64,000 bases of DNA. Origin: Tetrahymena thermophila SB210 (lineage: Eukaryota; Ciliophora; Oligohymenophorea; Hymenostomatida; Tetrahymenidae). The notes below the pieces were generated by a model. The model had not been told where the DNA came from. It worked only from the letters and a program-made list of their open reading frames with translations, and ran no database searches. Location of the stretch: the NCBI RefSeq assembly GCF_000189635.1, contig NW_002476434.1, positions 1,426,001-1,490,000 on the forward strand, read 5' to 3'. Position numbers and translations under genes: made by a program. Each line of letters begins with the position of its first letter. Position 1 is the first letter of the stretch. Below, one piece after another: positions 37,479 through 63,478 of the stretch.

Positions 37479-39939
37479 TTTTATCTTATTTTTGAAGCTA
37501 TGCTATTTAAACTGTGTTTATAAATAATTTTTCTAAATATATTGATGGAGATATTTTAACTTGAGTCTCCTCTTTTTCTTAGTATTTGGATTGTTATCTT
37601 TTTTAAGATTTTAATATAACAAATTAATTAATTTAAAACCTCTTGTTTCTTAATATTAAATAAGAAAAAAAAAGATAAGAGAACAACTTTAACAATTTAT
37701 CATCCATTAATAATCAAATTTACATAGAAGAGTTTCCTTGCATGTATGTAGTTATTTTCATTAATTTATTAAAGATATTTTCAATATAAAACATTTCAAC
37801 TAAATATGTTCAGCTATTATTATTAATGATGATACCCAACCAACTAAATCATTCATTCTCTTAATAATAAATTCTTTATTTGGCTATAAAATAATTTACA
37901 TAAAAAATATGCTTTCAAATAGAATTAGAATTTTATATTCATTTATCTTATTATATCATAAAATCAAAACCCCAAATAATCAGATTTTTCATTTAAATAA
38001 TAAACAGAAAATTTTATTAATTTGTTCATTAAACAAACATTTTTTAGCAAAATTATTAAATTGCTTAAAAATAAATAAATCTAACAAGCATTTAATTTTT
38101 TATTTTTTAATTAAGAAATATTTTTTTTTTTTTATATTTGTTAAAAATTAATTAATGATGGTTAAATGTCATTTAAATTATTATAAGTTAGCTTTTATTA
38201 AAATCTTATGAATAAAAATTTATAGAAACATTATGAATGATTATTTATAAGTTTCTTATGTAATAATATGTATTAAAGAACTAAAAATATAATTTTATTT
38301 TGTGTTTAAAATGGTTTTAATTAAAATTATTATTTAAATTTTCAGGATTTATAAATGAAAAATAAATACGAGTTTTTAAATAGCTTTCAATTCATAATCA
38401 GATTAAATTTTTATTATATTAATATTAATATAATAGTGCATTGAGATTATTAAATTTATTTTTAATTAAATTATATAAAATAAAATATTTTAATATTTAT
38501 TTTTTGTAATAATTGGCAAAATAATTTGGTTTTATTAATGAAAAATAAAATATTTTGTTAAGTTGTTTAAGGATACCTTTATAGATAGATAGAAAAATAG
38601 ATAGAAAGTTTTTATTTATTTATTTATTTCTTTATTTTTACTTTCTAGTGCAAATTGTCTAAAATTGTTAGAAATATTAATGAATAATATTTTGCTTTGT
38701 TTTATTTAGTTTAGCTGAATTTTGTTGCATTTTAATATTTAGGAGTGATAAAAATATTTGTGTTTTGTTTTGGTCGAAAATTAATTAATTAATTAATTTA
38801 AGAAACATAAATTAATTTATATATACTCCAAGATTAAGATTGAAAAGAGTGGTGAATAAAACAAAGAGAAAGGCTGTTTTTTTGAAATGATTTTGATGAA
38901 TTAAGTTAGAACAGATTTAAATAAAAAGTTATCTATATGTAATAATATATTATGCAAGTTAGCTTACATAAAGAAGCAATTAGTTAAATTTAAATCTATA
39001 TTTCTATTATTCACATACAATAGATATATTTTGAGTATATTTTAAATTTTTGCTAATCTCCGTTTACATAAGGTTCTTCATCTGTACTGTTTGTTATAAT
39101 AATTATCATTAAATTAAAAATAAACTAATATTCAAAAATAAAATCAAAATTATCATTCTAAATGAATTAATGAGTGCTTTCTCACCAAATTGTAAACTAA
39201 TTATTTTATTTTTCATGCCAAAAAATAAACATCATATCATTCATCACTTTTTAAAAGTCCAACAAACTCATTTTAATTAATGCTTTTGAACAGATTAAGT
39301 TAGGATTTAGGATAATCAATTAATTAGAAGTAAATGGAGGAATTAATCATTGAATTGAATTAACTAAAAATTTGAATGCTTTTGATATTAATTGATTGGT
39401 TATTATTATTATTTTTTTGTTTCCATTTAGCGAATCCTAAATTATATAAAAATATTATAGGGATTATTGAAATGGTAATTTATTTGTCCATACATAAGTT
39501 AATTACTCTATGCAGAGAATAATATATGCGGTATGGATTTACTTATTTTTTTATTCTACTTCTTTCAAATAAATAGCTAATTCTAATGATTTATTTTGTG
39601 CATTCTACTTCCTTTTAGTTATTATTATTGATTCTATATAATTTGCTATTTTATCTTATTATTTTTATCCTCTACTTAGTCCTTTTTTGCTTGCTTAACT
39701 CTGTTCCTTGATTTTTTCTGTAATAAATAAATCAAATTATTATTTTTCTTTAAAAGAATACATGCATGCATGAAACTTTATTTCATTTCTTTTTTACTTA
39801 AGTCAGTACTACACTCATTCTAAAAGCTAAGTACTTCAGTTTAAGAAGCTAGTAAAGGCTCTTTCTTTAACTCAAACCTTGATTTAATCTATGGATTGTC
39901 ATTCGGTTTTTTAATCCTTTCATAATTGTTTATTTATAC
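37479..39939. other. intergenic, AT-rich
   Basis: About 2.5 kb without a supported gene. The short plus-strand ORF at 37909-38151 is Asn/Lys/Ile/Phe-only and rejected. GATA-type (about 38582-38607) and TTTA-type short repeats occur. Confidence 0.5.
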
Positions 39940-48814: not shown

Positions 48815-51800
48815 TCAATAAAATTTTATTGATAAATATTAAACAAATATTAAACATTCTTGATGGATTTTAGCTAATATTTTTATTATCTTAATTTTTT
48901 AGAAAAAAATTAAATTATGAATAAAGATTAAAAATAAAGATAAATAAATCTTTTAATAAAAAATCAATTAAAAATAGAAAAGAATGATAAAAGCAGATTA
49001 GGTAAAAAAAGTTTGCGAATTCCTTAGTTTTTTATAGATGACCTTATCAGGTTGCTTCACATCGGTTTCAGGATTAGTTTTTAAAATTTCAACACAGGAA
49101 AAGCAAAATAATTTTATCTGAAAATATATTCAAATTATAAAAATAAATTTGAAAGTGTATCATAAATAACAATTAATAATCAATCATTTATTTATTGGTT
49201 TACAAAAACCTATAAAAATATGAACAATACATACTAGCTTAATCGAATAAATTAATTTAAATTATCAATTTATTTTTTTCATCATATCTATTTTTAAAGG
49301 ACCCATCTTCTTCCCTTAACAAGACTGCTTCACCAGCTCTAAAGATTTTAAAACATCTTGCCAAAACAGCTTCATCTTTTTTAATAAATTTAATTTAATC
49401 ATAAAAAACTTGATAAAAAACAAACCGTTAAAATTAAAAAATTAGAAAATTTTCGAAAATTATTTAGAAAGAAATGAAAGTAAATAATTAAAAAAATAAA
49501 CAAAAAAATTGTTAGTGTAGAAAGAAAAAATTATAAAATTAAAAATAAAACATCTAATCTACCTCTGATTAAAAGCATTAGGAAAGATTAGCGTACATTC
49601 CAAATTCATTAGCGTAAGACCTAGATTTATCATAAAACTAGCTTGTTATTTACTTATCCAATTAGTAGGTGTAAAATGCAATCTAATCTTTCAAAACTTC
49701 TGGCTCCTTTAATCATAATTTGATGATTTTTTATTTCAAATATATATATAATTTAATTTTTACTTTAGAAGGGGCATCTATTGATTCATTACCATTAGAG
49801 GAAAATGTTTTTTTTAAACTATTGAGCATACTTTTGTTACCTAAAATAATATTTTTAAATATCAAATTAGATTTTTATTTTAAATTCTTATTTATTTATT
49901 TATTTTTATAAAACTCATAAAATAAACATTTATTGATATTTGTTTGCTTAAGCATTAAATTAAAAATATTTCGTGTATTACTTATCTTTTTTGAATATTC
50001 GTCTTACATCTGAGTTTTTAACTTTGAAAGTGTTTTAATTGAAAAGTTATTTTCTTTTTAGAATTTGAAAAAATGGTAGTAGTGGTTCTCTATGCTTCTA
50101 ATTTGATCTTTTATGCTATTTGCCTGCATCATATTTATGTTATTCATAATTTTATACGTATCAAGAATTTAATCAAACTAAATTTTGTATTATTAAAAGT
50201 CATTTTTATAAAGTGTGAGATTATTTATGAATTATTTTACTTATATATTGTTGTGGTTTTATACTTGCTGCTTGAAATGAATAGTGTTTTGGTAAATGTT
50301 GGTAAAGGTTGAACCTATATCGAAGAGAGTATTTGACACAACTTATAATTAACTCATCAAGTCTTTTGAGAGCTTTTTCAGTCTTTTATAGTAACCATCA
50401 TTTACATCTAAGTAAGTGTTTAGAGCTTCGTCAACTAATTTGCTTTCTAATTTACTGTAATCTAATCTGACCTAAATTAATTAAAATATTACAAAGTTAA
50501 ATTCTTTTTTTCTATGTGTTTTGAATTATAAATTAATCTTTTTACGAAGCCATCATGATTTAGAATATAAGCAATGTTCTTTGGTTTAGGAAATTTATCT
50601 GATTCTTTAATTTTTTCTTTGTATATTTTGTCATCAGTTATAGAAAGGAAATCTAAAATGAACTTGCTGTTCTTTAAATCTTTATTTTAAACCAATAAGT
50701 TTAGAAAATGCTCTAAGTATGTTTTTCTGTTCTTTTCTTGCTTTTCTGTTTTTATTTTCTTGGCTTAAATCAATTTAGGGATAACAATTCCAGGATACAT
50801 TTTTGTCAAAATAGCTTAGAGCCATTAGAAATCTTCTAATTTTCTGTTAACTTCCCATCCAAAAGGTTTAGTTTGTATTACATAATAGGTGGTAACTGAT
50901 CCAAAGAGACCAGACTATACTTATTTAATATTTGATATATAAACATTAACTTGTTTCTTTGTTGAAATTAAGCTTTAGCCCAATCTTTTGCATTGAATTT
51001 TAATAATATTATTGCTTTCAATAACTTCTGGCTATTATCCTGCACTGTACACGTTAAGTTATTTCAAAGTCTTAAAATCATTTGCTTTAAACTCCTCCAT
51101 TTATTTTTAAAATTCTATTTCTTGCAACTAAGAGCTATCAACTGAAGCATTACTACTGCTTTTTTTCTCTCTAACATCAGCTTGATTATTTGCTGTCCCA
51201 TTATCTATTGTATTTGATGCAGAGCTTCTGTTTCTTGTAACAGCTGCATTTTGGTCATTCTAAACACTGGAATCTTCTTTTATTTTACTTGTCACTTACT
51301 AAACTTGCTATTGATTTTCTTTACTTGAGATCGAATTTTTTTTTATCTAATCAGCTTGATCTTAATTGCTTTCTTTTTAAGGATTCTACTTGTCAAATGA
51401 ATCAAAGCCAACATATTAAAAGGGATCTTATACTTAACTAGAAACCTAATTGCTTTATATATTTTGAGCTTGAACTTTATTGTCAGAAAAATCTGGCATT
51501 TGCCAAATGTTGGATTGGAAATCATTATTTGGAGTAGATACTAGGTTTTACTGAAATTTTTCAAATGCTATATCCGTAGAAGATCTGTCTCTAATACTAT
51601 TTTCATTGCCTGGGCTCACTAACTACTTTTAGCATTGAATTACATCAAATTTTTCAAAGAGATCCTCTTCATGCTCTTCTTCTTATCCATTTATATGAGA
51701 ATTAGCAAGATGCTCTTCATTATGTTAGTTATTTTATATTTCCTCGCTTTAGTTCTATGTGATTTCTTCTTAGACTTATTGTTATTCATATTAAATTTCA

Positions 51801-52320
51801 TTTTATTGATCTTCTTGATTATCTTACTAAAAATCTTCATTATGATCTGCTTAATTATCATGCAACTATTCTTCAATATGATCTACTTCCTAAAATTGCT
51901 CATACTAGCCTTCATTTTGCTACTAGTAAATATTGTAATTCTCATCATATGCTACCTGTTAAGATAATTCATTTTATTCTCTTTATTCATCCAATGTTTT
52001 TGCCTACCTTTGAAAGTTTTTTACTATCTAAATATTAAAAAATGTTAAATTTTAGTCACTGCTAAAAATAAAAAAAGAAAATTTATTTACCAACTTCAAC
52101 TCTAAAAAATCTAACTTATCTATATCTATATGAACTGTTTAAAAATGATTTTAGAAAGATGCTTATTTTTAATTAAAATATTTTTACTTTCTCCACCAAA
52201 ATTAGCACTCATCATAGATTCTCTGCAAAAATTCTCAAATTCATTTTAATCATAGTTCTTATCTAAGATTTCTTTGCATAAGTACTTCTACTTCTTCTCT
52301 CTTTCTTATTCTATATCCAT
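48815..52320 (-). CDS. PX-BAR sorting nexin with long Q/N/E-rich N-terminal region
   Basis: ATG 52320 (MDIEQEREKKQKYLCKEILD) opens a minus-strand gene; exon 1 ends at 52188. The first ~430 residues are Gln/Asn/Glu/Ser-rich. A PX domain follows: NNIIKIQCKRLGQSLISTKK, TTYYVIQTKPFGWEVNRKLE, DFQWLQAILTKMYPGIVIPK, then NRKTYLEHFLNLLVQNKDLK. Next comes a helical BAR-like region (RLDYSKLESKLVDEALNTYL, YYKRLKKLSKDLMSQLQ, then FDIG|NKSMLNSLKK across a ~460-base intron at about 49850-50310, and AFYTYQLDKQITSQFYDKSR). PX binds phosphoinositides and BAR dimers sense curvature, so an endosomal/retromer-type trafficking role is likely. The 3' exons (about 49270-49440 and 48990-49130) are certain as coding but their joints and the final stop (48815-48817 or a little before 49000) are not. 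Plus-strand ORFs at 49720, 50073 and 51635 are shadows. Confidence 0.78.
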
Positions 52321-53118: not shown

Positions 53119-55941
53119 TCATTTAATATAAAAATCATATTTTACTAATTTTTTTATTTTTAGCAGACTGTTTACCAAACTAAAATTAACTTATACACCA
53201 GAATGCAAACTATCATAATTATATCTATCATAATATTAAAGCATAAGAAATTTAAGCTATGGACAATTTTTTAAATTAGAGCATAAAGCTAGTAAAGTTT
53301 ATTCATGTTCTTCTCTATATTTATTAAAACTTAAAAATATTTTTTATTATTTTTTTTTAGTAAAAAGTTAAAAGATGAGAAATAAATAAATAAATATAAT
53401 AATTAAAAATAAGAATTGAAATTGAAAAATTTTAAACACCCCAATGAAAAATGAAATAAATATATTTATTTTAAAATCTATCATAATTTTTATTTAAAAA
53501 TTCTAAATTTTACTTTAAAATAAGATATAAAATTACAAGATTTTTGCACTTAGCTAAAGCAAGACATATGTTAACAACACATTAATTACCAACATCGTTA
53601 TCGCTTTATGTTTAATAATAAAAATTTTTAGATTGAAAATCAAAGAGAAATAAAATAATTTTTTTTTTGAAATTAAAAATTTATAGATTATAAAAGCTAA
53701 TAGTATACCCTAACCAAAGTGTTAAGTTTGAAAGATTTGAGCAATTTGTTAGGCTCTGAGCTAATTCAAATGCAGAGTCTTAGATATTATTATCACTAAA
53801 ATATTATTAAAAAATATTGAATTTTTGCTTCAAATTGATTTATTGAAAAGTAAAAAATTTTAATTGAAAGTTAATTTATTTTTAATTAAAATATAATATA
53901 AATTATTTTAATATTATTAGCTTCTTTTATGTCAAAAAAATTTAATTTATAATTGTTTTAAATAAAAAGCCTGTTTTTATACCATAAAAAAAGATCTAAT
54001 TTTTAAAGAAGGACTAAATTTTTTAACTATGTTGCTAAAGCCTTAGTACCATTTTCCCCAATATTATTATGCCTTTTGATAAATATAGTTTATTTAACAT
54101 TTTAACAACAATGATTAAAAATTTTTTTTACATCAAATTTAATTTTAAATTAGTTAGATTTGTTAATTTAGCGAGCTAAAGTTATCCAAAAATATCATTT
54201 CCTCCAAGACCATTTTCACTTTAATTTAAAAAATAAAAGTAAACATTTGTATCCATAATAAAAATTTTTTAATAAATTCTTCCTCATTTGAAATATGAAA
54301 GCTCAAAAATATAATTTTATTACCTTAAATTGATATCCAAAGTAGAAAGGCATTTTAGATTTGCTAGACCGTTACCTAAATTTTAAGATAGACTTGCCTT
54401 AATATTATTTCTTCTATTGAATTTTATTTAAGAAATTATTAATTTATTATATCAAATTGATTTTTTAATATAATATTTTTACTCTAAAGATAGAATTAGA
54501 GTCTATAATTTAGTTTAGGTAGCCAATTATGAAGTCAGTTAAATGAAAAACTCATCTTCAATTTAATTTGATCTTATTTTAAGAATTTATAAATTTTATT
54601 TATAAAAAAATAAAAACAAATCAAAAAATAAATAATAAATGACAATAATATATTATAAAAGCCAATTTAGCATAATAATTATTTATATAGCTTATAAATA
54701 AAACACTTAAATACAATTTACAATCTAAATGCTCTTCATGATTAAAATGAGCAAAAATAATAGCATTTATTTAAAAATTGGTATGAAAAAGTTTAGAAAG
54801 TGCTTAAAAATATTGAAAAGTATTTTATAAAGATATAGAAAAAGTTTGTTTGTTTGTTTACTTTAATTCAATTTTTAGAGATAAAAGATCAGTAAATTAT
54901 TTAAAACTAAAATCTAGACTTTATGCTATATTTTTCATAATATTGTTTTAGCTTTTAAATTAAAAAAATAAATAATCAGATTTTATTTAAAAAAAATGAA
55001 AATTAAATAAATATTTAAAATTTTACTTAAGTAGAATTGTCAAATTTTTGAGACTATTATTTAATTGATCTCCTGAATCATGATTTTATTATTGATTTTC
55101 TTCAAAATTATTTTAGCTTTATTTTTATTTATATTATAATTTTTAGTATTTTATGATTCGATTACACAAAAAAAGAGAGACATATCAAAATATTATAAGT
55201 TATATCATTTTTTTAAACAAAAATTGTTGATTACAAAAAAAAAACACTCAAAAATTTATTTTTACCTTAAGTCTAAATACAATTCTTTTAATTTAGGATA
55301 TTTAGCAATCTCATGACCTAAATATTTCATAACATCTGAACCAATACTTACCTAGTTTCTGATAAAAAATAAAATAATGATTGATTACAACTTAAACTAA
55401 TAAAGTATTGAATTTTTATATATTTTCTTAAAGAAAGCAGACAGAAAGAATGATTATTTATATGCCAAAATATATAATTATTCCTTAAATCCGTTTTCTA
55501 AGAGTATGAATTAAGATATATTTGGATTTGATAAAATTTCTCATGGTATTAAAATTTGTTATCGAATACCGAAAGCAATTGAAAAAGTAAGTATGGTATG
55601 ACATATTATGTAACAAGAGTAAATTTTTTACTATAGATATAGATAGAAATATGAGAGGTTGGAGCATTTTGCTAAATTAGATCCTAGAATTGACATATCT
55701 TTAGCTGTAATGTTGTTGAATCTATTATTATTAAAATATTTATTTTACTTAGCATTTAAATAATTTATTAATTTGATAGTAGTTAGAATTCATAAAAATA
55801 TAAAAGATATTATTAGTTATTTTAAATTGAAAATAATACCCAAGATTAAGACATAGTGTTTGAAGATTTGTACAGTTTTTTAAAGCTAAACCTACATGCT
55901 ATATATTTTGTCCAATATTATTATTACTTTTATAGATAAAA

Positions 55942-55980
<39 letters not shown>

Positions 55981-58385
55981 AGTGAGTTTTTAAAATAACT
56001 AAAAATAATAACTATGTAAAAAAGTAAATTAAACTTAAATATTCATACCTGAAATGTATGCTCAGATATTATAGGCTGCAACAATTTGTAAAAGCAGGTA
56101 CTATAGATGATAAATCTTGTAATTCAATTTAATTGTGACTTATTATAATTTAAAGTAGGTTTAATTTTAGTAACTCAATATAAAAAGTAAAATAAAAGAA
56201 ATTAGTTGCATATATTGTAAATTAATATAAATCACTTTTTAAACAAAAATAGTACTTGTAAAAAATTGTTTATATGCAAATTGAGAATCAAATTTTAAAT
56301 TTAAATGTTATTAAACAAAGATTTGTTTTAAATTTTATAAAAATAAATGCATTCAAATGCATTTTAAATTTCTAAAAAATAATTTAAAAGTTTTTAATTA
56401 GTTTCTAATATAATAATCATAAATAAATAAATATCATTTCAGAATATTATAAATCAAATATTAAATAAATAAATTTATACCTAAGATCAAGAATCAAATC
56501 TTTTAGATTAGTGCAACTTTAAAAAGCAGTACATAAAAATGAAATTCCTTTTCCAATTTAATTATCCCTTTTAATTATGAAATTAGAGCATAAGTTTGAT
56601 TGATTACTTTAACATATAAATTGATTATATAATTTAAAATAAAGTGTAAAACTTTAAAGATAAAATTTAGCTTTTAATTGATATTTAATTGTACATTATG
56701 TTGAAAAATAATATTACCGAAGTTCAAGTGTTAATTCTTAGAGATTTCTGCAACTTACAAATGCAGAGCTTAATGAATATACTTCTTACGAGCTTAATTT
56801 TTTATTACTTTAATTATTATTTAAAGTTAAACAGTAAGATAATAATTACACATAAATTTTATCAAAGTTTATTATTAATTTATTTTTAAATTAAATGTTT
56901 ATATTGTTTAATAAAAATAAAATTACTTTAAAAAAAGTTCAATTTTTTATAAGCTAACACAATTTTTGAACAAAGAATTTAATTCAAGAAGGTCTTAATC
57001 TTTAAACTTATCAACTCTAATATAGCATAAAAAAATATAAATAATTTATTTTTTTAAATCAGATTGTTATTAAAAACGAAAGTATAATATCACATTCTTT
57101 CTTTTCAAACAAAGATGAAAGAAATTAAGTATTGTTTTTTTAAAAAAACTTTATCGCTTAAATAAATATAAAATACTGTAAATCTATCCTCAGAAATTTA
57201 AAACTTTTTTATTTTAGGCAGATTTATTTTTTTTTGTATAAATGGAAATACTCGAAATCAAAATTTAGGGGCAAATATATATTAATGAGGATTTACTGTA
57301 ATATTTTTTTTTAATGAATTTAAACTCAAATAATCATAAAATTAAAAAAATAAGATATTACTCTAACTTTATAGACAATTCAGAAAGGTTAACAAGACTT
57401 GATAAAGCAGAGAATAAGCCTAACTTTTAATTTTTTTAAAGCTATATATCTGTATCGCTTTTTGTATTAAGGAATAAATTATTTCTTAAAATCGATTAGG
57501 ATATTAAAAAAGTAAAGATAAATATATTAAAATATTTATAATTTCATTAGTGTTAAATACTCTTCTGTATTTCTAAAATTTATCTAAATAAATTTTACTA
57601 AAAATATAGTTCCAAAGTTTAGATATTAGTGAATTATCACAACATTTTACTTAAACTCTAAACTCCTTTTAACTAAATACCGCTTATTTATAAAATTAAA
57701 ATTAATTAAAAAAAATATTTAGATATTTATTAACATTTTTAATTAATAAGAATGATAATTAATTAGTAAATTAATACATTATTTAATTTTTAAATAAACT
57801 TAGGAATCAATAAAAATATCAAAAAGAAATATTAATTAATTAATTTATTTATTTTTACCTGAGCCTAAGTTTTAAAGTTGAGAGTAAATTGCATTTTTAC
57901 AAAGCTTTGCATAATGCAGCTAAATTTTTATCTGAATCAAAAAATCCACTTTAAATTAAATAAGAAACGATATTAAAATTTTTTATTCGAAAAAAATTGC
58001 ATATTAATTATTTAATAAATTTATTATATTTAATTAATAAGAGTTTTGATGTTAAAAATATTTTCTTAATTAAATTTTTATTTCTAAAGATATCAATCAA
58101 AATAAATTTACTCCAGTTCAAATACCTACAAATTATTCCACTATTTTATACCTTTGATAATGGCTTAAAATAATTCAGATGATCTATATTTAAATCTATT
58201 TTAATAAAGATATACTTAAACAACCAAATATCATTTGCAAAGATTAAAAAAACATTTTAAATTTATTAATCTTTTTCAGAGTTTACATAATTTAATACCT
58301 AAAATAAATTTTAAAAACCGAGAGATGAGTCCAATTTTTTAAAGCTTAAACTAGCTTAATATCTCCTTCATAAAACCATGAATGC
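53119..58385 (-). CDS. leucine-rich-repeat protein with one repeat per exon; possibly decaying
   Basis: On the minus strand each small exon encodes one ~29-residue LRR of the type NNIxxxGxxxLxxALxxCxNLxxLxLxLx. Exons: 58385-58299, 57948-57859, 57682-57599, 57457-57362, 57016-56927, 56807-56718, 56567-56481, 56138-56049, 55926-55840, 55721-55632, 55359-55266, 54572-54483, 54410-54324, 54218-54132, 54072-53983, 53795-53709 and 53603-53514; a last exon from about 53330 ends at TGA 53119-53121. Best repeats include DNNIQDSAFELAQSLTNCSN plus LSNLTLWLG, and NNIGQNIQHVGLALKNC. Nearly all exons are 87 or 90 bases and start with one codon base and end with two (phase 2). The exon at 57682-57599 has an in-frame TGA (57639-57637); the exon at 55359-55266 has one extra base. 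A degenerate unit lies at about 55027-55105. The 5' end is unresolved; a candidate upstream exon lies at about 58540-58594. The protein probably serves as a binding scaffold; partner unknown. Confidence 0.72.
53514..58385 (-). repeat. array of phase-2 symmetric LRR exons
   Basis: At least 17 exon-sized units of 84-96 bases are separated by AT-rich introns of about 60-350 bases. Each begins after ...AG with one spare base and ends two bases into a codon before GTAAA/GTATA-type donors, so units are interchangeable without changing frame. Confidence 0.75.
55937..55981. repeat. (AAAT)n microsatellite
   Basis: About eleven AAAT units lie in an intron of the LRR locus, directly beside the acceptor of the exon at 55926-55840. 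Confidence 0.9.
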
Positions 58386-59706
58386 CTTATCAAATATTAT
58401 ATAATTAATTTAATAAATTTAGTATTAAAAGAATAAAAATTAAACATCTAACTTAAATATTATAACTATTTACTAAAATAAACCTTTTATTTTTTATTAT
58501 TTTTTTTTTGAAAAATGGTTAAAGAAATAATTTTTTTACTTATCTTCAATGTGGCACTCATTAACTTCTGTCGATATGGGACACTCTGTAAACTTATTAA
58601 AAGATAATAATAAGTTTAATATTATATTCTTTCAATATTATTAATTACTTGATATATGCTAGAAAATTTTTTAATCATTTTATTTTGTAATACTAAACCT
58701 TCAGTAAATTTTATTTTATTAAATGATTATTAAATTAATCAAAGTAGAGATTTTATTCACTATTAGATTAAAACTATACGCCTGAAATTTAATTAATTAT
58801 GTAGATCAAATAAATTAAACAGATTCAAGCGTCTCTATTAAAAACCTAAATTAACCAAATTAATTAATATGAAATAGATAAAAGTGTCTTTGTTAAAAAC
58901 TTAAAATAAAAGTTATTGGTATTTACATATTTATTTTGCTTTCTAAAATAAGAAGGTTTGTTAAATTATAATCAAAATGATGGAGGAAAAAATTTGTTTC
59001 GCTATTTGAGAAAATTTATTCATATAAAATTTAACTATTTAAGTAGAAAAAATTAAGGAGATCATATTAAATTAAATAGAATCAAGTGTCTCTATCAAAA
59101 AATGTAAATTAATCAAATTAATTAATATAAAATATTAAAATATGTGTTTGTTTGTGTGCGTCTCTATTAAAGCTTAAAATAAAAATTATCAGATTTTATA
59201 TTTATTTTGCTTTCTAACATGATAAAGTTTTTGAAATTATATTTTAAAATAAATTAAATTAAAACAAAAAACAGTGTATTTCTAGTCAGATTTTGGCAAA
59301 TTTATAAAAAGATAGGAAATTTCTTTTCACAGCATTTAATAAATTTTTTATAAAAATGAAAAAAATTTTTTTTTCTAATAAGAATTTAACAAATTAAAAA
59401 ATGATATTTATCATACACATCTATCTCATCAAAAAAAATGTTTAAGCCTATTTAAAAGATAGAGAGTGAAAATTTTGATTTAAAATGGGGAAAAAAAATT
59501 ATATTAAACGGATTTATAATGTTATAATATTTATTTGCTAAATCGAAAGTAGATAGATAATATATAATTTTATTTAACTATTTAAATATAAAATTAAATT
59601 TGTTACAAATCAAAACAATCGTTGTTTGGTTATCTTAAATAATTTATATTTTTTAAAACTCTACTTGAATTTTATTATTTCAAATAGAATACTAAATATG
59701 AAAGAG
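58386..59706. other. 5' flank of LRR locus with diverged direct repeats
   Basis: It contains a possible LRR-gene 5' exon (58540-58594) and two diverged ~180-base direct repeats (about 58803-58985 and 59062-59245). No other gene was seen; the plus-strand ORF just beyond, at 59728-59919, is antisense to the next gene. Confidence 0.5.
58803..59245. repeat. pair of diverged ~180-base direct repeats
   Basis: Copy 1 (about 58803-58985) and copy 2 (about 59062-59245) share in order: GATCA..TTAAATTAAA.AGA.TCAAG, GTCTCTAT.AAAA, AAATTAA.CAAATTAATTAATAT, a CTTAAAATAAAA.TTAT stretch and TTTATTTTGCTTTCTAA. Copy 2 has a short insertion with GTTTGTTTGTGTGCG. Confidence 0.75.
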
Positions 59707-62700
59707 TCAATCAATCAGTAAATTATTTTGAAATTTGGGCATTATTTATTTTGCATTTTTTCCTTTGAATGTGTTTTTAATATTTTTACTATATTTTTGA
59801 AACAAATCTTGAATAATCTATTGTTTATAGGTTTTATTACTATTCTATGCAATTTTATTTTCAAAAATTTATTTATTTTGAATGAATTAGTTAGCCATTT
59901 AAAAATTATGTTAAGATAAACTCTTTTATTTTTTATTTAAAAAATTTCTAACAACAACATTTTACTTAGGATAGAACTAAATTTTTTAAAAATTGTTCAA
60001 CGATTCTTACTTTACTTATTTTTCTTAGATTTCATTATTTTAAATATATTCTTGCATTTCGTTAGTTAGATTTAAATTTTGTTTTTCTTAATCATCTTTT
60101 TACAAATGGTTTGTTTGGCTCTAAATATATTTTTAGTTATTATTTTAATGGTCTGCATTGCTTGCATAATGATTAATAACGCTTTGAAAATCTAAATTTT
60201 CTTAAATCTCAGTTTGATCCTAAGTTTTTACTCCTAAATAATTTTGATTCAGAGTCAAATTATTTCCCATATTATCTAAATAAAGATCTTAAAGTTGTTT
60301 CTTTTTAATTTTAAGATTTGTTGAATTTTTTGAATTGGACTATCTATTTGATATTGGTCCACTTTGAAATTCTTTTGGAATTTATGGAGAATACTTTGGA
60401 GACATTAAGTAACCCACTTGCTGACTAACATTTTTAGGAGTTTATCTTGAACTAATGTTCGTGCTCATCGATTGCTAAGCATTTGAGTAATATGTTTTAT
60501 TACCAAATGAATTAGAAGGTGTTTTAGAGCGGAGTAAATTATTTACATCTTAGATAGTTATTTTAGTATTAAATCTATCAAAACTGCTTTATGGCCTTAC
60601 ATTTTCTTATTATTACGAGTCATTTTAATTAAGTTTGGTTTTATTGTACTTTGAATCTTAAATTTAGTAACTATTTTAATCATAATTTAGGCTAGGATTT
60701 CTTTTTAACTCAAACTATTTAACTTTATCGTTTTTTCTTGGTTAATACAAAACGAACTTCCCACTACTTAGCTTTGGACTTTACAGCTTAAACAATTCTA
60801 CTTAATTTCTTTAAATTTGATGCACTGAATGTGCATTTCTGTTTTTATTGAGAGACTTATTTTGATGCTCATTTTCTTAATTATTATTTTAGTTCTTTTC
60901 TTTCAAATAATTAAAATTTTATTTCATCAGTGTTGGACCATAAGGTTCATAAGAAGTTGATCTCATTTAACTTTCCTCCTAAATCTCATCTTATTTGGAT
61001 TATTATTTAATAATAGCATTTTGTGATTAACTATTACAAGTTTCTTCTTCATCCATAGATAATCTTTAGCTGATAGTAGCATCGTTGGTTTCTGATCTTT
61101 TATGGCCCTTCTTGACAATATATTTTTCTGTTAAAGGGTTATTTTATAAAAGAATCGTGTTGTTATTTTTAGAGAGTGAAGTAAGAGATGTAGAAGGTCT
61201 ATTTGAAAAAGAGTTTTGTAATGTTTGGTTAATAATTAAATCTAAATGATTTTATATTTTTTTTTATTTTTCTCTAAGATTTTAGATTCTTACCATTTAT
61301 TTATCTTCTTCATTGAGATTCTTTTTTAAAATTTGATTTCTTTCTTGAATGGCTTATTGCTCCCTCTTTTTCTTTTCAGCCAATTGCTACTTATTCAATT
61401 CATCTTAAAAAGCTCTTTTTTTGTTTTTTTAGTAGTCTTCAATGCAATTAGTTTTAGTGCAATTCTACCAAACTGCTTGCTGATATCTATTCTCATCTAA
61501 AAACATATCAAAGCATTCTTGTTGAAATTTTGTAAGTTCTTTTCTAAGCGGTTTAGGCCTAAAATCATAAAAAGATGATATAATTTACTTATAATTTAAT
61601 TGAGGAGTACATCCACTCTCTATTTGATTGTAGCTAATCAAACTCAAATAACAATTTTAACAAACCCAAAATTATTTTGAGTAAAATTTTGGATTTTCTT
61701 TTATCTATTAATATGTATAATCAGTCATTTTAGGATGGATTTTTTAGAAAATTTCTGGAATAGTAATCTTAGAATTATTGTCAATTTTATCTCTCTAATT
61801 ATTGATTTAATCTATTAAGTCATCTATATCGTCTTTTTCATCATTTTTTAAAACATGGCTATTTAACCTGGCCATAGAAGCTGTAATTCCTGTTGTCTTA
61901 TTATTTTGCTTGAAATTATCGTCTCCATCTTCTAAAGTAGTATTAAGTGTATCCTTTTTAATCTTCTATTCATTTTAATATTTATTGTTTAAAACTTAAA
62001 TTTCTTTATTCTTTTAATCCCTACTGTAAATTAAATATTTGTAAGATATAGGAGCAAAATTCTAATGCTTGTGCAATTCATCACAATTCTAGCAAAGCAA
62101 ATCTTTTTCTAGCTAATTAGGCCTTCTTTAATCATAAGTAGCTCCTTTCTCTATATATTTAGGTATCTATACATAAAATATTTATCTTAAGTATAAGATT
62201 AAAATATAAAAAATACCTTAATGTCTGTTTCTAAACTTAATGGTCGCATATTTAGCTTGTTAGAGTAGAAAGTATTTGCTACGTAGTTTTTTTATCCATA
62301 AAAATTCTAAAAAAAGTAAAATTTGTAAATTATTAATAATATGATAATCTTACTTTAAGTTAAAGCCTGTAACAATTGTTCCACAGAAACCAAACTTTTC
62401 CAGTTTGATCTTACTTAAAAAATCCATCTGCTCTTTTGAAATGAGAATTACCATGAGAAAGAGCAAATATATGCTTTTAAAGTTAACTAAAATTAAAAAA
62501 ATGCAAACAATAGAATAAATTTACTAAGTGCATTCTTTCCATGCATTTTCTAATGACACCTGGAAGTAATCCACCAGCAACTGTACCTTAAAAGAGAAAA
62601 AAAAATATTTTAATAAAATTAAAAATTTCTTTTTTAAACAAAATTACAAAAAATGATTATTGATTTGAAAAGTGAAATTAAAAAGAAAAAAATTAATAAT

Positions 62701-63478
62701 ATAATTTCTTTTCATTATTCATATAAAATACTTATCAAAATTTTAAAGAATAAATTATATTTCACCAAGAATATTTGAATAAAAATTGTAACAATATTAT
62801 TAATTGAGTTTTTGTTGATTTACATTCATCTGAGAATATGTGATGACCCTCAAAAGTGCAGCATCGCTCATAAATATTTAAATTCGTATGGAATAAATTT
62901 TTCCTGTTTACTTTTTTTGAAACTATACAAGATCTTTCACACCAATTAGCTCTATATAATGCTGATTTAATTGTAAAAGATACTTTAGTATAAAATAAAA
63001 TATTTAATTTGAATGTTACCATTGTTTTCTCCTACAGGATCTATAAATTGCTAAAGAATACCTCTTTCTGGCCTCTAGTTTGGATTATCAAGAAAAGCCT
63101 CTAAAATAATAACATTTTTTTAGTTTATTTAATAAAAGAATAAACTGATAATGTAGGATTACTTAATTTAATTTCATCAAAATATGTTATTTATGTGGAG
63201 TTGTCTTCTGGGTCACTTTCAATAAAATAACCTAAAACATCACTTTTGGTTTTTTTATTTGTTGTGAAATGGTGGAATATGGCATCGTTATTAAGACTGA
63301 CGTTTCTCTTTTTTAATATTTGATCCTATTTATTTGTGAAAAACCACGCTATTGGATATTGATTTCTATAAACAACTGTATGAGGCAATCCAACTCCAAT
63401 ATTCGAATGATAAAGGTCTTTGTACTTCTCCCATAAAATAAAGTAAAAATCAATATTAATTCCTTCTTTTTCCTCCAT
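59707..63478 (-). CDS. large conserved protist protein with Cys-rich linker and Q/N-rich tail (1095 aa)
   Basis: Seven exons join exactly in phase: 63478-63163, 63100-63020, 62982-62824, 62586-62525, 62473-62354, 62306-62217 and 62166-59707 (1096 codons with TGA). Residues ~1-250 form a domain I recall from several protist and ciliary proteins: GILQQFIDPVGENN, a W...C...K..NRKNL segment, NIYERCCTFEGHH, GLLPGVIRKCMERMH and DQTGKVWFLWNNCYRL. The family has no name I can give. Two CxxC-type pairs follow (LLCQNCDELH; WVCQNCYLSL), perhaps a zinc site. Then comes a coiled coil (EDYQKTKKELFQDELNKQQL...) and a ~450-residue Ser/Asn/Gln-rich disordered tail. No membrane segment or enzyme motif is present. 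The ORF visible at 62762-63022 contains exon 3. Confidence 0.82.

Follow-up and report, generated by a model that had tools for sequence, protein, structure and literature searches.

We analysed a window of 64,000 nucleotides from Tetrahymena thermophila SB210 (contig NW_002476434.1, positions 1,426,001 to 1,490,000 of the forward strand), and focus here on a gene for a leucine-rich repeat (LRR) protein, which lies on the minus strand of the window at positions 53119-58678. The genome around the window, 101 Mb in 445 contigs, is probably macronuclear. Read with the ciliate code (table 6, TAA and TAG as glutamine), the locus gives a complete ATG-to-TGA model of 20 exons, 1,818 bases and 605 amino acids, running from 58678 to 53119. 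We propose, with a probability of about 0.8, that it is a protein-coding gene of the published T. thermophila kind with 90-bp, phase-2 LRR exons; no close paralog was found among the best candidates of our searches.

Candidate exons were scored as AG-exon-GT units bearing the LRR pattern, and exons 3 to 19 below are based on this pattern and the AG/GT borders. Exons 1 and 2, the predicted start, are drawn from the frame and the GT-AG borders, and two putative ghost exons come from a profile score. From 5' to 3', the features are:

58649-58678, minus strand: exon 1, predicted start, 30 bases, ATG, MIKKFSSIYQ, 56-base phase-0 intron next
58540-58592, minus strand: exon 2, predicted, 53 bases, FTECPISTEVNECHIED plus two bases, phase-2 donor
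58299-58385, minus strand: exon 3, LRR1, 87 bases
57859-57948, minus strand: exon 4, LRR2, 90 bases
57599-57682, minus strand: putative ghost exon 1 in intron 4, 84 bases, AATAAG acceptor, GTAAAA donor, in-frame TGA
57362-57457, minus strand: exon 5, LRR3, 96 bases
56927-57016, minus strand: exon 6, LRR4, 90 bases
56718-56807, minus strand: exon 7, LRR5, 90 bases
56481-56567, minus strand: exon 8, LRR6, 87 bases
56049-56138, minus strand: exon 9, LRR7, 90 bases
55840-55926, minus strand: exon 10, LRR8, 87 bases
55632-55721, minus strand: exon 11, LRR9, 90 bases
55266-55358, minus strand: exon 12, LRR10, 93 bases
55027-55094, minus strand: putative ghost exon 2 in intron 12, more decayed, GTAAAA donor
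54862-54951, minus strand: exon 13, LRR11, 90 bases
54483-54572, minus strand: exon 14, LRR12, 90 bases
54324-54413, minus strand: exon 15, LRR13, 90 bases
54132-54218, minus strand: exon 16, LRR14, 87 bases
53983-54072, minus strand: exon 17, LRR15, 90 bases
53709-53795, minus strand: exon 18, LRR16, 87 bases
53514-53603, minus strand: exon 19, LRR17, 90 bases
53119-53329, minus strand: exon 20, terminal, 211 bases, with an 18th repeat (LLALCSNLKNCPQLKFLML), the C-terminal tail and the TGA stop

The core of the gene consists of 17 consecutive LRR exons (58385 to 53514, minus strand), each encoding one leucine-rich repeat. All 17 are preceded by AG and followed by a GTA donor, and all are made up of one base, whole codons without TGA, and two bases. 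A preliminary description of this DNA had proposed small single-repeat exons with exactly this phase, and our count bears it out. Its unit length of 87 or 90 bases holds for 15 of the 17 and fails for two; the lengths in order are 87, 90, 96, 90, 90, 87, 90, 87, 90, 93, 90, 90, 90, 87, 90, 87 and 90 bases (ten of 90, five of 87, one of 93 and one of 96), with consecutive 90-bp units in exons 13, 14 and 15. The extent that it gave the gene, 53119 to 58385, is now enlarged by a predicted start further up, at 58678, and the terminal exon opens with an 18th repeat.

All 18 introns between exons 2 and 20 lie in phase 2. The sole exception is the first intron, in phase 0: exon 1 would supply the ATG across this 56-base intron, and exon 2 ends in phase 2. 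Between LRR exons the introns measure 59-401 bases, with a median of 154 bases over all 19 introns, and seven, including introns 4 and 12, exceed 250 bases. The G+C content is 25.5% in exons versus 14.1% in introns. The majority consensus of the exons is xNxIxxxxxxxLxxxLxxCxxLxxLxLxLx, with leucine at codons 12, 16, 22, 25, 27 and 29, and the exon boundary cuts the repeat between the LxLxL strand and the next N-x-I turn.

The scoring pattern was tuned by eye after some exons had been seen, which makes the count of 17 partly circular, and we therefore rely on the contrasts of phase, frame and shuffling. At a threshold of 8 on the minus strand of the locus, the phase combination (1,2) gives 17 LRR units, whereas the eight remaining combinations give 0 to 2 apiece, and 100 dinucleotide shuffles of the locus give a mean of 0.14 units and a maximum of 1. 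No unit occurs on the plus strand of the locus, and the rest of the window holds three on the minus strand and one on the plus strand. TGA occurs once in the coding frame, as the stop, and 7 and 24 times in the other two, where the intron rate predicts about 7.7 per frame. The G+C content of the three codon positions (32.5/26.7/17.3%) follows the pattern of selected coding sequence. A plus-strand reading was rejected, as that strand carries no LRR array; so was the standard genetic code, as the coding sequence contains 28 TAA and 7 TAG codons that are needed as glutamine.

The gene belongs to a kind that has already been described. Single-repeat LRR exons are known from 10 Tetrahymena species (Xiong et al. 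2019, PMC6564038). According to this source, more than 98% of the introns before 90-bp LRR exons are in phase 2, and a 90-bp exon occurs at least once in 1,500 of the 1,874 LRR genes of T. thermophila; the number of such exons per gene ranges from 1 to 51, a wide difference in repeat number. The family leucines are printed there at exon positions 36, 48, 66, 75, 81 and 87, and the six consensus leucines of the present gene coincide with them exactly (PMC6564038). Two age groups are distinguished: group III is young, with repeats inside the gene that can still be recognised in the DNA and that one of 8 consensus repeats masks, and with introns of about 257 bp, and group II is older, unmasked, with at least one 90-bp exon and introns of about 56 bp (PMC6564038).

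The relation to this family is also observed in the genome itself. Our genome searches scored best candidates and may miss relatives. A DNA search with the locus returned at least 81 non-self matches (best 40 of 281 candidates). We fetched eight loci, stretches of contigs picked for a DNA match to exon 8 and therefore no random choice among LRR genes, and all eight carry phase-2 LRR arrays, with 56 exons, 48 of them exactly 90 bases long, and four calls altogether in other phase combinations. Among the gaps shorter than 600 bases between exons of these loci, 39 of 47 measure 240-320 bases. The comparison with paralogous loci suggested in the preliminary description recovers the phase-2 design in eight of eight, and yields no close paralog with a different repeat number: the whole-protein search finds 22-41% identity outside the locus (best 72 of 82 candidates), and a two-exon query reaches up to 62% elsewhere, in a stretch of about 30 residues within a single exon. 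For the first 56 residues, the best candidates include no match outside the locus itself. In several LRR genes of this genome (among loci L012-L038, for example L013 and L014), long arrays related to the same repeat, at 22-41% identity, lie in one open frame of up to 555 codons; these may be old intron-poor genes or retrocopies.

We next consider what the exon design allows. In silico, none of the 17 single-exon removals and none of 153 removals of contiguous blocks breaks the frame or creates a stop, because the exon phases are symmetric; this concerns the frame and does not show skipping itself. That the array can change by whole repeats without frame loss, as had been predicted, is upheld at this level. 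The further suggestion of a repeat-number-variable design is backed in part, by the modularity, by a probable past shrinkage and by the wide published differences in repeat number among such genes; variation of this gene itself, and alternative splicing of its exons, would be predictions. With one repeat per internal exon, cut after the LxLxL strand, the units would be joinable in any number.

The array is probably old, its units having diverged from each other and its introns being no longer alike. With the low-complexity filter on, four unit pairs within the gene reach E 0.001, and in two of these the match is on exons; introns 4 and 11 (75% over 56 bases) are the sole intron pair at E <= 0.001. 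Without the filter, intron matches at this cut-off rise to 37, an A/T-rich resemblance. The earlier description of the introns as unrelated AT-rich DNA holds if this resemblance in A/T-rich sequence is set aside.

Exon 8 differs from the other units. Compared with 48 young exons it reaches an average identity of 0.693; the corresponding values of the remaining 16 exons are 0.464-0.598, and those between young exons from different loci are 0.695-0.818. Against the unit profile it scores 51 bits, the match running 35 bases into the next intron, and the next best score is 28.9 bits; it also takes 69 of the 81 non-self DNA matches mentioned above. Exon 8 may be a later acquisition from a young LRR gene, brought in by ectopic recombination or gene conversion, which would make the array a mosaic. 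We hold this to be possible, though less likely than not. Its intron side is weak, however: intron-only profiles find no match beside exon 8, and the first 35 intron bases after it have a mean identity of 0.58 to young introns, no closer than after several other exons (up to 0.59; young introns among themselves 0.737). The matches on exon 8 are 68-80% identical, and no near-identical donor was found among the best 40 of 281 candidates. Moreover, the adjacent exon 7 ranks next after exon 8 in the profile search and shows a weak resemblance to it (75% over 52 bases, one of the four unit pairs), and slower divergence in this part of the array fits equally well. In the reading we favour, exon 8 would have stayed nearer to the young family, or would have come later from it.

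Introns 4 and 12 appear to hold decayed LRR exons, one clear and one weaker. The introns were scanned with a 3'-anchored profile built from the 17 exons and 56 young exons, with stops allowed, and 10 of the 19 introns were scorable (GTA far enough in). Ghost exon 1 reads GVQSLSKML*QFTNIQTLELYF, ends at 57599 in the phase-2 register and scores 21.1, inside the leave-one-out range of the intact exons (6.7 to 40.2). Ghost exon 2 reads QQQNHDSGDQLNNSLKNLTILL, ends at 55027 and scores 4.2, below this range; its 3' part (SLKNLTILL) and GTAAAA donor keep the phase-2 register, and its 5' part is unrecognisable. Two units would have decayed to ghosts and would be spliced out with the intron. The array has probably shrunk already, because the ghost repeats would be lost in splicing, unless the gene is truncated.

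Such a truncation is the essence of another explanation, in which the gene is a pseudogene. Ghost exon 1 would then be a normal exon with a nonsense mutation, still spliced in, leaving a stub of at most 101 residues and the other exons as relics. Its score falls in the range of the intact exons, and it keeps the AATAAG acceptor and the GTAAAA donor; RNA sequencing (RNA-seq) of T. thermophila suggested that splice sites are mostly recognised across introns, which favours the inclusion of an exon with good sites (PMC3274533). With this exon included, the first stop falls at position 102. On the other hand, the gene is intact in all 17 LRR exons and at both ends and has no internal in-frame TGA, and ghost exon 2, if real, seems long dead while the remainder stayed open. 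We consider a pseudogene unlikely.

The two retained splice sites of ghost exon 1, and the stop after 101 residues that its inclusion would bring, nevertheless weigh against a functional gene of the published kind, as do three further points. The exon joins of the model are predicted from the frame and the GT-AG borders, and its splicing pattern and functionality are likewise predictions. A Pfam scan of the 605-residue model gives no family at cut-off, the best being LRR_4 with 18.9 of 27 bits, and also LRR_5. Finally, the published age groups are defined by masking with the consensus repeats, and exon 8 could put the gene in either group: the diverged units fit group II, and the median intron of 154 does not; on the side of group III only four unit pairs match at E 0.001 under the low-complexity filter, yet exon 8 matches many young units.

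A chance resemblance, with no exon ever present in introns 4 and 12, is very unlikely. In its favour, DNA profiles of young units match weakly in nhmmer searches of the whole window (young-unit profile, E 0.11 for ghost exon 1 and 0.016 for ghost exon 2; young-exon profile, E 0.74 and 0.84), ghost exon 2 scores barely above the best shuffle, and intron length is no sign of a lost unit, the equally long introns 3, 5 and 8 (350, 345 and 342 bases) being free of ghosts in the profile scan. Against it, none of 500 shuffles reaches either score, per intron or over all introns together (best 2.06), the profile was not trained on the ghosts, and both end at GTAAAA in the exact phase-2 register.

We also scanned 36 further loci (L043-L078), mostly young genes, on both strands. 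LRR calls were obtained in 24 of the 36, 101 in all and 99 distinct, and 97 of the 101 have an open in-frame acceptor. Three lack one: in L049 two repeats are fused in one exon, L078 holds half an exon, and the call in L059 lies in a longer open frame. One call, in L065, has an in-frame TGA. This exon, ending at 1259, is 90 bases long and otherwise normal with intact splice sites; its TGA is the 13th codon from the exon end, a repeat position shared with ghost exon 1. In 16 of the 24 loci, a DNA profile yielded 100 matches, of which 11 lie outside called exons. L049 accounts for two (the fused pair), and L065 and L078 for one each, at the exons just described. In L073, a 672-base gap holds an exon that is intact save for one absent codon. 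Four matches are truncated by N or by the end of the locus (two in L070, one each in L072 and L073). The remaining two are a half match 3' of the final exon called in L075 and, 5' of the first exon called in L077, a frameshifted sequence that lacks splice sites and is a possible additional ghost. No profile match falls in the three other long gaps (in L063, L075 and L077). Ghosts as a frequent feature are not supported, given 97 intact calls among 101 in this mostly young sample.

Since this exon design was known before, a further gene with it is of little importance by itself. The two repeat exons that appear to have decayed inside introns are a detail beyond the 2019 description; the main text of that paper (PMC6564038) does not use the terms pseudogene, exon skipping, alternative splicing or intron loss. 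These ghosts suggest a way for a repeat array to become one unit shorter while the protein stays intact. If splicing removes dead exons, repeats could be lost by point mutation and splicing, besides recombination.

Among 1,474 splicing events in T. thermophila, 139 are cassette-exon events, and the introns concerned are the longest class, with a mean of 279 bases, the skipping intron included (PMC3274533). A broad eukaryote survey found an animal-like 3n bias of skipped exons in T. thermophila and in no other non-animal, an excess left unexplained in section 6 (PMC6142364). We speculate that phase-symmetric single-repeat exons let the array tolerate mutation, in that an LRR exon gaining a stop is dropped by splicing, exactly one repeat is lost and the dead exon decays in the merged intron, and that skipping of the many thousands of such exons also explains the 3n excess; this is doubtful, and more probably wrong than right. 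No title in the open-licence literature searched links the skipped exons of T. thermophila to LRR exons.

The predicted protein would be an LRR solenoid of 605 amino acids with 18 repeats, short ends and no other recognised domain. Its role is presumably protein binding, perhaps in the cytoplasm. A recognition role, such as the sensing of bacteria, is offered as a hypothesis only (PMC6564038, section 27). By sequence, the nearest solved chains are a leucine-rich repeat protein (E 9e-6), followed by T-complex-associated-testis-expressed 1 and two uncharacterized proteins (E 4e-4 to 5e-4).

Directly downstream of the LRR gene lies a glutamine-rich open frame with a PX domain toward its C-terminus (50378-52234, minus strand). 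Upstream of the LRR gene and outside its model, a Q/N-rich open frame of 1,003 codons has no Pfam match (59707-62718, minus strand). Elsewhere in the window we find the Tetrahymena H/ACA small nucleolar RNA TtnuHACA27 (39415-39500, minus strand; Rfam RF02333, 113 bits) and, on the plus strand, pieces of two adjacent genes of the TCP-1/Cpn60 chaperonin family (PF00118; 25973-27893 and 30659-31483), which occupy the two GC-richest 2-kb stretches. Telomerase exons are also present: 28 of 28 and 48 of 54 residues agree with solved telomerase, in PDB entries that we take to be from T. thermophila, and the mismatches fall at the ends of the second stretch, where the open frame probably overruns the exon. 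Together with the small nucleolar RNA, these exons agree with T. thermophila as the source.

Compared with mammalian LRR proteins of the NLR and ribonuclease-inhibitor type, the predicted protein has similar repeats of 28-29 residues. It weakly matches PDB 5irl/5irm (E about 5e-4), listed as an uncharacterized protein and presumably NOD2. Genes of this type carry one or two repeats per exon. Unlike mammalian NLRs, the present protein shows no NACHT or other signalling domain in the Pfam scan, with neither NACHT nor NB-ARC at E up to 1. The vertebrate glycoprotein hormone receptors (FSH, LH and TSH receptors) also have single-repeat LRR exons and phase-2 introns. In contrast to the gene described here, their repeats are shorter and fixed in number, and the product is a membrane receptor.

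The closest likeness is to groups II and III of PMC6564038. Species, single-unit exons, phase-2 borders at either end of the exon, the six leucine positions, the tandem array, the AT-rich introns and the lack of an extra domain are all alike. The present gene differs in that just 10 of its 17 LRR exons are exactly 90 bases long, in its median intron of 154, which falls between the peaks of about 56 (group II) and about 257 (group III), and in its two apparent ghost exons.

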